A stretch of 37,657 nucleotides of DNA, taken from NCBI GenBank assembly GCA_004356955.1, contig SMXS01000043.1, positions 1 through 37,657 of the forward strand, given 5' to 3'. Source of the DNA: Alphaproteobacteria bacterium (lineage in GTDB: Bacteria; Pseudomonadota; Alphaproteobacteria; SMXS01). Shown here one piece after another: positions 23,976-29,500 of this stretch (position 1 is its first letter; each line of letters starts with the position of its first letter). The notes below the pieces were generated by a model. That model searched no databases. It saw only the letters and a program-made list of their open reading frames with translations, and was not told the DNA's origin. The translations under genes were made by a program, and so were the position numbers.

Positions 23976-25493
23976 CTATTGTAATTTTCGCAACACAAAG
24001 GGCAGCGCCTCGGGGATGTCTTCTGCGATGAGGCCGACACCAAAGGCCCGCCCCGCCTCGCCGTGCAGCCAGACACCTGCACAAGCTGCCTCAAAGGCCG
24101 GCATTTGCTGTGCCAACAGTCCGCAAATAATGCCAGCCAGCACATCGCCCGACCCAGCCGTCGCCAGGGTTGGTGGTGCATTGCTGTTGATGGCAGCCCG
24201 GCCATCTGGAGACGCAATGACAGTATCGGCGCCCTTCAACACAATGATGGCGCCGGATCGAACCGCGGCCGACCGGGCCTTTTCCAGCTTGCTTGCAGTA
24301 GTATCTTTGGCCAGATCGGGGAACAAACGTTGGAATTCGCCATCATGTGGCGTTAGCACGCTGTGATCGTCAAGCGCCTCAAATAGCGCATCCGGATCGT
24401 CCTTAAAGCTGGACAGAGCGTCCGCATCAAGCACACAGGATCGGCCAGCACCAAGTGCGGCCAAAGTATTGCGACGGCAAGGTTCGCCAATGCCGTTGCC
24501 AGGACCAATGACCAATGCATTCTTGCGCTCGTCATCCAGCAGCTCTTGCAAATTATCGAAGCCCCGCACCATAACAGCGTCTAGCTTCGACGCATGAGCC
24601 AGCACAGCCCCCGGAGGCGATGCCACTGTCACCAGCCCAGTGCCTGCACGCAGGGCACCGCGAGCGGCCAGTCTGGCGGCCCCACCTTGCGCAACCCCGC
24701 CCGAAACAACGACCGCGTGTCCCCGGCTATATTTATGGGCATCGATTTTGGGCCACGGATAAAGCGGCAGCCAGTTTGCTGGGATGTTTTCGCACTGCTG
24801 TGGCTGAATGTCGTCGAGGACACTGTCAGGGATGCCAATATCGGCACAGATGATCTCGCCGCAATGAATACGGCCTGGCAGTAACAGATGGCCCGGCTTT
24901 TTTCGGAAAAAGGTAACGCTGATGTCTGCCTGGACTGCGGCCCCCAATATTTGGCCAGTGGTGCCCTGGACGCCAGAGGCAACATCGACCGCAACACACG
25001 GCGCACCCGATGCGTTGATCGCCTCGACAACCGATATGACTTCGGGCGACATAGCACGCGACAGCCCTGCCCCAAACATCGCATCAACAATGACAGAGGC
25101 GCCGTCCACCAAGTCGGGTGACAGGGGCAAGATATCGCCCGTCCATTTGTCGGCGTTGGTGGCAGCATCACCCTTCAGTTTTGATTTGTCGCCAAGAAGG
25201 CCAAGCGTTACCGGCCAACCCGCCTCGGACAATAGTCTTGCGACCACAAAACCGTCGCCACCATTATATCCGGGACCGCAAAGAACGCTCACGGGGCCTT
25301 GCGGATAACGGTCAATAATTGTGTCTGCAATCGCCTTACCGGCTTCTTCCATCAGCACAAGGCTGTCGATACCTGCCGCCTCAGCCAAGGCATCAGCCTG
25401 GTACATTTCTTCTGTCGTCAAAAGAACAGATTCTGGGTTCAACGGTGAAAGAGACAAAGTGACACTCTTCAGGTTCAGCCGATAGGGATACAA
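23976..25493 (-). CDS. nnrD: Bifunctional NAD(P)H-hydrate epimerase / ADP-dependent dehydratase
   Basis: Repairs damaged NADHX and NADPHX. The N-terminal half is the YjeF_N epimerase domain (LLTTEEMYQADALAEAAGID, GPGYNGGDGFVVARLL, VDAMFGAGLSR). The C-terminal half is the ribokinase-like dehydratase domain (VVSGGVAQGGAARLAARGAL, VIGPGNGIGE, LTPHDGEFQRLFPD, TLATAGSGDVLAGIICGLLA). The start is uncertain. The track limit is a TTG at 25493; a TTG at 25457 has a better GAAGAG site; the first in-frame ATG (25406) would cut into the conserved LLTTEEM stretch. Next to glnB in many relatives, but here an accessory block separates them. Confidence 0.93.
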   Translation of the reverse strand: MYPYRLNLKSVTLSLSPLNPESVLLTTEEMYQADALAEAAGIDSLVLMEEAGKAIADTIIDRYPQGPVSVLCGPGYNGGDGFVVARLLSEAGWPVTLGLLGDKSKLKGDAATNADKWTGDILPLSPDLVDGASVIVDAMFGAGLSRAMSPEVISVVEAINASGAPCVAVDVASGVQGTTGQILGAAVQADISVTFFRKKPGHLLLPGRIHCGEIICADIGIPDSVLDDIQPQQCENIPANWLPLYPWPKIDAHKYSRGHAVVVSGGVAQGGAARLAARGALRAGTGLVTVASPPGAVLAHASKLDAVMVRGFDNLQELLDDERKNALVIGPGNGIGEPCRRNTLAALGAGRSCVLDADALSSFKDDPDALFEALDDHSVLTPHDGEFQRLFPDLAKDTTASKLEKARSAAVRSGAIIVLKGADTVIASPDGRAAINSNAPPTLATAGSGDVLAGIICGLLAQQMPAFEAACAGVWLHGEAGRAFGVGLIAEDIPEALPFVLRKLQ

Positions 25494-25496
25494 ATG

Positions 25497-26102
25497 TCAT
25501 CTTACTATAGGAGAACGCCACAGGCACAACAGCTTTACTGACCAGTATGGAGGCGAAAATGCTCCAGATGGCCCAAGATAGAAAATCAAATTACTCTGAC
25601 CCCATTGATTGCGTTTTTGCTCGTTTTTGCTAATGATGGTAGTCCTATATGGCAACGCTCTATCGTGAATTTGATAGGGGGCGGGGCTGTGGGGAACCAA
25701 AAAGCTATTCGCGTTGCAAAGAGATTCGTTCAAAACCCGACTATATATGTATTGAAATTCGCCGAATTGCTGGAATTCCCAGCCCTCAAGATCAAGATCT
25801 TCTTGTGAATATCTTGGATGAGGCAAATCTTTCTGCACCCCATACTTCCCCTCCGATGGAGCCGAGTGAATTTGACGGAATGCCAGAAAGATAGAGATTG
25901 CAAGAACAAGCAATGAGCAGAAGATCCTATAGGCAGTCTTAAGGAAGGGATCTGCGTTAGAGTAAAACTGAGGATCTAAAAGCTCATGCACACTAGGGGC
26001 GAAAAATCCTATGAACATTCCTATGAATGTAATTATTAGAAATTTGTAAAAACCAATCCTAAAGGCCACCAAGTCTCTGAAGCTCCTAATCATACGATAC
26101 AT
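25497..26102 (-). CDS. Orphan two-helix membrane protein inside an inverted-repeat-bounded segment
   Basis: I do not recognise a family. The ATG at 26102 is preceded by AGGAAGGA, a much better start than the track's, and gives 201 residues. There are two hydrophobic segments, about residues 18-36 (YKFLIITFIGMFIGFFAP) and 57-75 (AYRIFCSLLVLAISIFLAF), then a soluble C-terminal part rich in aromatic and acidic residues (EDLDLEGWEFQQFGEFQYIY). Residues 165-174 (NQWGQSNLIF) are simply the translation of the left copy of the 27-base repeat. The frame then runs on to a stop four bases before nnrD, so the last 37 or so residues are probably accidental. AT content is visibly higher than in neighbours. 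Confidence 0.55.
   Translation of the reverse strand: MYRMIRSFRDLVAFRIGFYKFLIITFIGMFIGFFAPSVHELLDPQFYSNADPFLKTAYRIFCSLLVLAISIFLAFRQIHSAPSEGKYGVQKDLPHPRYSQEDLDLEGWEFQQFGEFQYIYSRVLNESLCNANSFLVPHSPAPYQIHDRALPYRTTIISKNEQKRNQWGQSNLIFYLGPSGAFSPPYWSVKLLCLWRSPIVR
25583..25609 (+). repeat. Left copy of 27-base inverted repeat
   Basis: Contains TTACTCTGACCCCATTGAT. It matches the right copy (26206-26232, opposite strand) at 26 of 27 positions. The GGGGTCAGAGTAA core resembles, from memory, a motif often seen next to IS200-like (Y1) REP-associated transposase genes; no such transposase is in this window. Confidence 0.8.
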
Positions 26103-26205
26103 TCCAAATTCCTTCCTCAAATAATCTGCCCTGTTAGTGGCGTTGGGTGCCGAGCAACTTCCTCTGCCATACTCCATCGGCTAAAAATTATATTCTACCA
26201 ATTAG

Positions 26206-26232
26206 ATCAATGGGGTCAGAGTAAATTGATTT
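26206..26232 (-). repeat. Right copy of 27-base inverted repeat
   Basis: Reverse complement of the left copy with one mismatch. It lies about 100 bases upstream of the orphan membrane gene, so the two copies bracket the ATG and nearly all plausible coding sequence. No matching target-site duplication is visible in the outer flanks. Confidence 0.8.
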
Positions 26233-26277
26233 AGGATTAGAGACTTCTCGCGTGATCGCAATATTCCTCTAACGTCC

Positions 26278-26637
26278 TCATACCCACTCAATTTCGTCAA
26301 TTGTCATATCCCCGCCCGCATCACCTGTATTAACTGTCTCAGCAGGCTCTATCACCAGGGCCCAGCATTCTTCGCTAGCACTAGGTTTATGCTCAACGCC
26401 CTTTGGCACAACAAAAAGGCAACCCTCTGTTAGATGGACAGCCTCGTCACGCATCTCAATGGTTAGCTGACCTTTGGTCACCAGGAAGAGCTCATCGGTA
26501 TCGTCGTGTTTGTGCCAGACGAACGAGCCCTGCATTTTGACAAGCCGGACATGATAGTCGTTCAACATAGCGACTGCTTTAGGGGACCAATGATCGCTGA
26601 ATTTTGAGGATTTCTCTTCCAGGTTAATGGCTTTCAT
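26278..26637 (-). CDS. Small single-domain cupin protein
   Basis: A 119-residue beta-barrel protein of the cupin superfamily. Motif 1 supplies His42, His44 and Glu49 (WHKHDDTDELFLVTKG) and motif 2 supplies His83 (FVVPKGVEHKP), a complete metal-binding set. Proteins of this type are often annotated only as cupin domain proteins; the substrate cannot be read from sequence. The ATG at 26637 has AAGGA eight bases upstream; the GTG just before it is less likely. It is divergent from the PhzF gene and shares a 133-base intergenic region with it. Confidence 0.85.
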   Translation of the reverse strand: MKAINLEEKSSKFSDHWSPKAVAMLNDYHVRLVKMQGSFVWHKHDDTDELFLVTKGQLTIEMRDEAVHLTEGCLFVVPKGVEHKPSASEECWALVIEPAETVNTGDAGGDMTIDEIEWV

Positions 26638-26700
26638 CACAATTTCCTTGAACTTGAAGCAGATAAATAAGTCGAGACTATATGATTTTAGGGGGTGCCT

Positions 26701-26728
26701 CTTACAAAGGACGGCTATTGGCTATAAT
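26701..26728 (+). promoter_or_regulatory. Promoter of the PhzF-family gene
   Basis: CTTACA, 16-base spacer, perfect TATAAT. The start would be near 26735, about 36 bases before the chosen ATG, which also argues against the longer ORF in the track. Confidence 0.55.
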
Positions 26729-26770
26729 CGATCAATAATATCGTACCTTGCGGATGTGGAGATTACCAAT

Positions 26771-27556
26771 ATGAAGATAGACTATTACCAAGTTGATGCA
26801 TTTACAGACAAAGTATTCCAGGGAAACCCCGCTGGCGTATGCCCGTTGGACGAATGGCTGCCCGACGACATTATGCAGTCGATAGCTGCAAAGAGTAACC
26901 TGGCCGACACCGCGTTTTTCAAAAAGCAGGGCGATAGTTATGGCCTGCGGTGGTTCACCCCAACGCTGGAGGTCGACCTCTGCGGTCACGCCACATTGGC
27001 ATCTGCCTTCGTCATTTCCAGCGTTCTGAATAATTCAGATGAACCAGTGATTTTCGATACCGAGCAGGCTGGCAGACTGGTGGTTGAGAAGATGGGATCC
27101 CGTCTGGTGATGGACTTGCCGTCGCGAGCACCCGAAGCTGTTGAAGTGCCTGAACTAGTCGCTGATGGTCTAGGGTGTCAGCCAGCTGAAGTGCTTGGGT
27201 CGCGAGATTATCTGGCGATATTCGATCATGCCGATGACGTCGCCAACCTGGCACCAGACCTTGCAAAACTGGCGCGCATTGACCGTTTTGGTGTTATCGC
27301 GACCGCGCCGGGCAAGGGTGACGTGGACTTTGTGTCTCGTTTCTTTGCGCCAGGCAGCGGCATTCCTGAAGACCCCGTGACTGGTTCCGCGCATTGCACC
27401 CTCATTCCGTATTGGGCACGGCGGCTCGGGAAAAGGGAATTGCTCACCAGGCAGATATCCTCCCGTGGGGGTACTCTCTTCTGTGAAGACAAGGGTGATC
27501 GCGTGTCTGTGGGTGGAACTGCAGCACTCTACTTATCCGGGACGATAGAACTTTGA
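26771..27556 (+). CDS. PhzF-family isomerase/epimerase
   Basis: A 261-residue member of the PhzF family (diaminopimelate-epimerase fold), which includes PhzF of phenazine synthesis and many enzymes of unknown substrate. It starts MKIDYYQVDAFTDKVFQGNPAG, has DLCGHATLASAFVI in the first half and EDPVTGSAHC in the second, both typical of the active site. The track start 48 codons upstream lies before the promoter; the ATG at 26771 has GGAG upstream. The residue equivalent to the catalytic Glu45 of Pseudomonas PhzF is Asp46 here (SNLADTAFF). No other phenazine genes are present, so phenazine synthesis is not implied. Confidence 0.88.
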   Translation: MKIDYYQVDAFTDKVFQGNPAGVCPLDEWLPDDIMQSIAAKSNLADTAFFKKQGDSYGLRWFTPTLEVDLCGHATLASAFVISSVLNNSDEPVIFDTEQAGRLVVEKMGSRLVMDLPSRAPEAVEVPELVADGLGCQPAEVLGSRDYLAIFDHADDVANLAPDLAKLARIDRFGVIATAPGKGDVDFVSRFFAPGSGIPEDPVTGSAHCTLIPYWARRLGKRELLTRQISSRGGTLFCEDKGDRVSVGGTAALYLSGTIEL

Positions 27557-27661
27557 AGTCAGGGTTGTCTCGGGCTTTGACGTTTGATTGATTCCAGCTG
27601 TAGCTAATTGACCAATATCACCCGACATGGGTCGGCATCATTCATACTATTAGGGGGATAA

Positions 27662-27739
27662 TGGGGTGGCTGACGGGAATTGAACCCGCGACCTCCGGAA
27701 TCACAATCCGGCGCTCTAACCAACTGAGCTACAGCCACC
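27662..27739 (-). tRNA. tRNA-His (GTG)
   Basis: Cloverleaf on the minus strand with the extra 5' G(-1) opposite C73 that marks tRNA-His. Acceptor GTGGCTG pairs with CAGCCAC, the anticodon loop TTGTGAT gives GTG, T loop TTCAATT, and CCA is encoded. It is 47 bases downstream of the aminotransferase stop on the same strand. Confidence 0.96.

Positions 27740-29143: not shown

Positions 29144-29500
<357 letters not shown>

Follow-up and report, generated by a model that had tools for sequence, protein, structure and literature searches.

We analysed a 37,657-nucleotide contig of an alphaproteobacterium (SMXS01000043.1, hereafter the window) in which two near-identical copies of a 27-bp repeat stand on either side of an orphan open reading frame (ORF). 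Both copies are probably solo terminal repeats of the TIRYT type, and the orphan probably arrived within a larger variable block rather than as cargo bounded by the repeats. An original prediction, made from the letters of the window, had instead described the segment as a mobile cassette.

A repeat pair and an orphan reading frame

The left repeat, a solo copy of the TIRYT-type terminal inverted repeat, lies at 25583-25609 on the minus strand and the right repeat at 26206-26232 on the plus strand, which gives the pair a '- ... +' or inside-out orientation. The first 26 bases of the right copy are those of the majority form in other genomes, and the left copy differs from the right by one mismatch. 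As the original prediction had it, the two 27-nt arms match at 26/27 positions (96% complementary); they are separated by 596 bp and form the sole inverted repeat detected within 25400-26400. The 13-base core GGGGTCAGAGTAA occurs exactly in both arms and at no further position in the window. When up to two mismatches are allowed, the core has three matches in the window against 0.40 expected, a number reached in 0 of 100 shuffles. The predicted AT-richness of the segment also holds, with a G+C content of 42.6% between the arms compared to 52.7% for the window, a value undercut in just 0.3% of 596-bp windows. So does the predicted lack of a transposase: neither a Y1 gene nor Y1-element end sequences were found inside 25583-26232.

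On the minus strand, the orphan has an open frame of 226 aa between 26177 and 25497. Its likeliest start is the ATG at 26102, behind GAGGAAGGAATTTGG and with a good ribosome site (GAGGAAGGAATTTGGAATG), which yields a predicted protein of 201 aa (25497-26102, minus strand). Two hydrophobic stretches, at about residues 11-39 and 53-80, fit membrane helices, and the single-sequence fold consists of two long helices at low confidence (mean pLDDT 63). The codon-usage z score of the part inside the repeats is 2.4, compared to 4.9 for the neighbouring cupin gene, 6.1 for the PhzF-like gene and 3.1 for one opposite-strand frame. Because this signal is positive but below that of the neighbours, it is plausible rather than proven that the orphan is a real gene. 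Relatives are absent from Pfam, NCBIfam, PHROGs, PDB, plasmids and viral contigs, and no convincing one was found in 385 genomes of the class, where the weak matches (E 8e-4 to 8e-3) come from frames that contain stops. A two-helix membrane effector of the Pycsar or CARF kind was considered and rejected, since the PADLOC matches (PycTM, E 0.014; CARF_TM, E 0.03) cover the membrane helices alone and are no evidence of function. The original prediction was right about the ribosome site, the two predicted helices and the lack of a recognisable family, but not about enclosure: the 3' part of the ORF extends across the left repeat (…NQWGQSNLIF…) to a stop at 25497, 86 bp past it.

The orphan lies in a lineage-specific block

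Four relatives have nnrD, tRNA-His and an aminotransferase gene side by side. In the window, a block of about 2.1 kb (25497-27661) that is absent at this place in the same relatives separates nnrD from the 3' end of tRNA-His (gtg anticodon; 27662-27738, minus strand), the conserved neighbour of nnrD. Besides the orphan, the block comprises a cupin-domain gene adjoining the right repeat (26278-26640, minus strand; Cupin_2, E 5e-12) and a PhzF-like gene (26771-27556, plus strand; PhzC-PhzF, E 1e-50), relatives of which occur elsewhere in one sister genus and are lacking in the same-genus genome. Compared between these genomes, the insertion therefore amounts to the entire block, about 2.1 kb long, and is not the 650-bp segment; the repeats are not its borders. 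The segment had also been placed between nnrD and glnB; this is correct on the nnrD side, but glnB lies farther along, at 29147, and the cupin, PhzF-like, tRNA-His and aminotransferase genes intervene.

Lying between conserved nnrD and aminotransferase and adjoining the 3' end of tRNA-His, the variable block (25497-27738 with the tRNA) may mark a small hot spot for integration. At the end of the block away from the tRNA, no attachment-site repeat longer than 8 bases was found.

The repeat ends Y1 transposase elements in other genomes

In its extended form, ATCAATGGGGTCAGAGTAAATTGATTT, the repeat serves as the terminal inverted repeat in Y1 (HUH, IS200-like) transposase elements. Scanning for 25 exact bases of the repeat returned 24 stretches from Gamma- and Alphaproteobacteria, mainly marine assemblies; an exact 23-mer was not found in viral contigs. 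Both the repeat and the Pfam family Y1_Tnp were subsequently mapped in 15 repeat-bearing genomes, that is the 14 behind the 24 stretches and the same-genus genome, which together hold 103 repeat copies. Six loci, spread over five alpha- and gammaproteobacterial genomes, have a Y1 gene (decayed in some cases) inside an inward-reading '+ -' pair of the form 'ATCAATGGGG… gene …CCCCATTGAT', with the copies 805 to about 930 bp apart. These are G073:C66 (7802+/8615-), two elements on G066:C3 (38215+/39026- and 42066+/42871-), G069:C5 (6438+/7364-), G062:C74 (2126+/2942-) and G072:C71, where the right copy is degenerate. Further Y1 loci, for example G067:C16, G067:C82 and G065:C127, have the repeat at one end or in another arrangement. 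The repeat-flanked genes match Y1_Tnp with E values of 1e-12 to 1e-16.

Shorter '+-' pairs of 57-183 bp are also present in other genomes. Several of them share inner ends with the same Y1 elements or recur at two loci, so we regard them as MITE-like deletion derivatives. A 124-bp MITE of the family occurs at two loci of the alphaproteobacterial assembly NORP63 (L050:1257-1380 and L054:2721-2844), once inverted, which suggests recent mobility. Unlike these MITEs, the window pair faces the other way and lacks conserved inner ends. One locus, L033 (3820+ to 5181-, with a 370-aa ORF), was considered as a correctly oriented cargo element and rejected: its right end keeps the start of a Y1 gene (MARLARLN...), and it therefore reads as a decayed, interrupted Y1 element. 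At L042, L050, L052 and L040 the repeat often provides the stop codon of the preceding gene (ORFs ending SMGSE), which indicates gene ends altered by repeat insertion. Within the class the repeat is rare (4/385 genomes), and this rarity together with its patchy spread suggests horizontal arrival.

These features fit a published class rather than a new one. In TIRtrons, or TIRYT elements, inverted repeats bearing the motif GGGGWSAS enclose a Y1 gene, and the repeats occur single, dimeric or grouped as well (PMC3733652, Di Nocera et al. 2013); the motif is likewise found in TnpA-Y1 subclass 2.1 (PMC6006769, Quentin et al. 2018). Both window copies carry it, as GGGGTCAG. Unlike the complete elements, the window has solo repeats alone, in an inside-out pair and with no transposase. 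Subclass 2.1 has a C-terminal helix-turn-helix; in five full-length transposases of the present family, Pfam found Y1_Tnp and no helix-turn-helix model at E<=1. Searching the literature with the letters of the repeat gave nothing related among the matches listed.

The original prediction had linked the repeat core to IS200-like, REP-associated transposases. The kind of transposase was right, but the features of a classical REP are lacking. Like REP, BIME and REPIN sequences with their RAYT enzymes, the repeats are small, dispersed, intergenic and tied to Y1 transposases, and they occur as paired short units; in place of GTAG or GTGG at the foot of a strong hairpin they have a conserved GTCAG core. 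The predicted fold is weak, with a 6-bp stem, a 13-nt loop and -1.7 kcal/mol. Across 45 distinct variants GTCAG is invariant while the outer arms vary. Compensatory changes are absent at arm positions 1-5 and seen in four variants at position 6, where pairing is broken in 12/45. We therefore rejected a classical REP/RAYT repeat: an invariant core with arms that vary almost without compensation looks like a terminal repeat recognised by its sequence, not like a REP hairpin.

Solo copies in the genome of the window

Further copies of the repeat, which the original prediction required, were found in the genome of the window (G000) on contigs C158 (two in direct orientation), C57 and C102, on C53 and, degenerate, on C116. 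The same-genus genome (G001) has three weaker copies. Copies in both genomes share the 27 bp alone, with unrelated flanks on both sides except for tandem decay at C158 and C116. Homology that ends at 27 bp between unrelated flanks identifies them as solo repeats. Outside the window all own-genome copies found are solo or direct doublets (the latter at C158, C57 and C116), and many lie close behind stop codons. Beyond the ORFs adjoining the copies on C158, C57 and C102, no partner repeat was found above the level of shuffled sequence. Nor was a Y1_Tnp gene detected, beside a repeat or elsewhere, in G000 or G001; the assembly of G000, in 171 contigs, is 91% complete, so a Y1 gene could be missing from it.

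Several of these sites have features of their own. On C57 (L009:4589-5161) the ORF adjoining the two direct copies encodes a TIR_2 protein (Pfam, E 9e-7, just above the cut-off); Toll/interleukin-1-receptor-like domains are common in anti-phage defence. On C158 (L008:3284-4219) a 311-aa ORF, without relatives in 95 further genomes of the class or a family match that passes a curated cut-off, ends beside the two direct copies. The two degenerate copies on C116 (L011:5769-6133) sit in an apparent transposase-start remnant, MARFTRRRFSPAEKTELWDRW, which we take to be that of an IS30-like transposase. In G001, about 250 bases from the repeat copy on C145, there is a near-perfect long inverted repeat, AACTGGCTGCAAATACGGGGGCAAGGTCA (L013:1170-1250), which is another mobile-element signature.

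Orientation and origin of the window pair

Among inverted pairs less than 1 kb apart in the 15 genomes, 27 have the '+-' orientation of transposons and one is '-+'; this lone pair lies between the remains of two elements. Taken at face value, the '-+' orientation of the window pair places the orphan outside both repeat units. Together with the lack of Y1 sequences inside, it led us to reject the segment as a complete TIRtron or a non-autonomous derivative of one. The reading originally predicted, in which repeat, orphan and repeat form a 650-bp unit mobilised in one piece and in trans by a Y1 transposase, is unlikely. It would account for an AT-rich orphan, with no credible relative in the 385 class genomes, being enclosed by two near-identical inverted copies of a repeat that ends real transposons elsewhere. 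However, every Y1 element and MITE seen has the reverse orientation, the one further short '-+' pair is a gap between element remains, the ORF extends past the left repeat, and the genome has neither a detected Y1 gene nor a second unit with cargo between paired copies. It is highly improbable that inside-out solo TIRYT repeats mobilise the DNA between them and spread orphans as a new kind of Y1-mobilised cassette, with the gene's border on the 3' side formed by the repeat; ORFs of no known family or of defence-like look do adjoin the repeat at two or more further sites in the genome. Were inside-out pairs mobile, they would be a novel means of gene mobilisation, of which these data give no sign.

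An orphan left between two former insertions would fit the orientation exactly: the left repeat would be what remains of one element's right end, and the right repeat what remains of a second element's left end. Similar '-+' gaps separate adjacent elements in G060, G061, G066, G067 and G073. Such relics are nevertheless a rather unlikely source, since no inner end or partner repeat could be traced outside either copy and the own-genome copies all stop at 27 bp, as solo repeats do and unlike varied truncations. The frequent position behind stop codons would also suit a shared regulatory or terminator-like signal, but this is scarcely credible for a repeat that flanks transposase genes and MITEs, is patchily distributed and combines so weak a hairpin with arms lacking compensatory change at positions 1-5.

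We favour solo TIRYT-type repeats. A TIRYT-type Y1 element family would have spread horizontally among Proteobacteria, and a Y1 transposase from a past resident or passing element, now absent or never resident, would recognise the ATCAATGGGGTCAGAGT end and leave single copies at scattered intergenic positions, in most cases on the downstream side of a gene. The orphan would have received one such copy at its 3' end, and the other would have landed about 45 bp past the 3' end of the cupin gene, so that the two would enclose the orphan by chance and in inside-out orientation. Placement by a Y1 enzyme and independent landing of the two window copies are inferred. The closeness of two good copies is the weak point of this history: by a hand estimate, about seven random sites in 2.19 Mb would give ~0.02 close pairs, so two near-perfect copies 596 bp apart oblige us to assume local clustering or a shared event. 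The direct doublets on C158, C57 and C116 provide a precedent for clustering in the same genome.

Most likely, then, the orphan is a lineage-specific gene that has stray repeats as neighbours on both sides. These results tie a little-studied family of transposon ends to solo repeats in an alphaproteobacterium without a detectable Y1 transposase, and within this family the orientation of the repeats separates real elements from chance enclosures.
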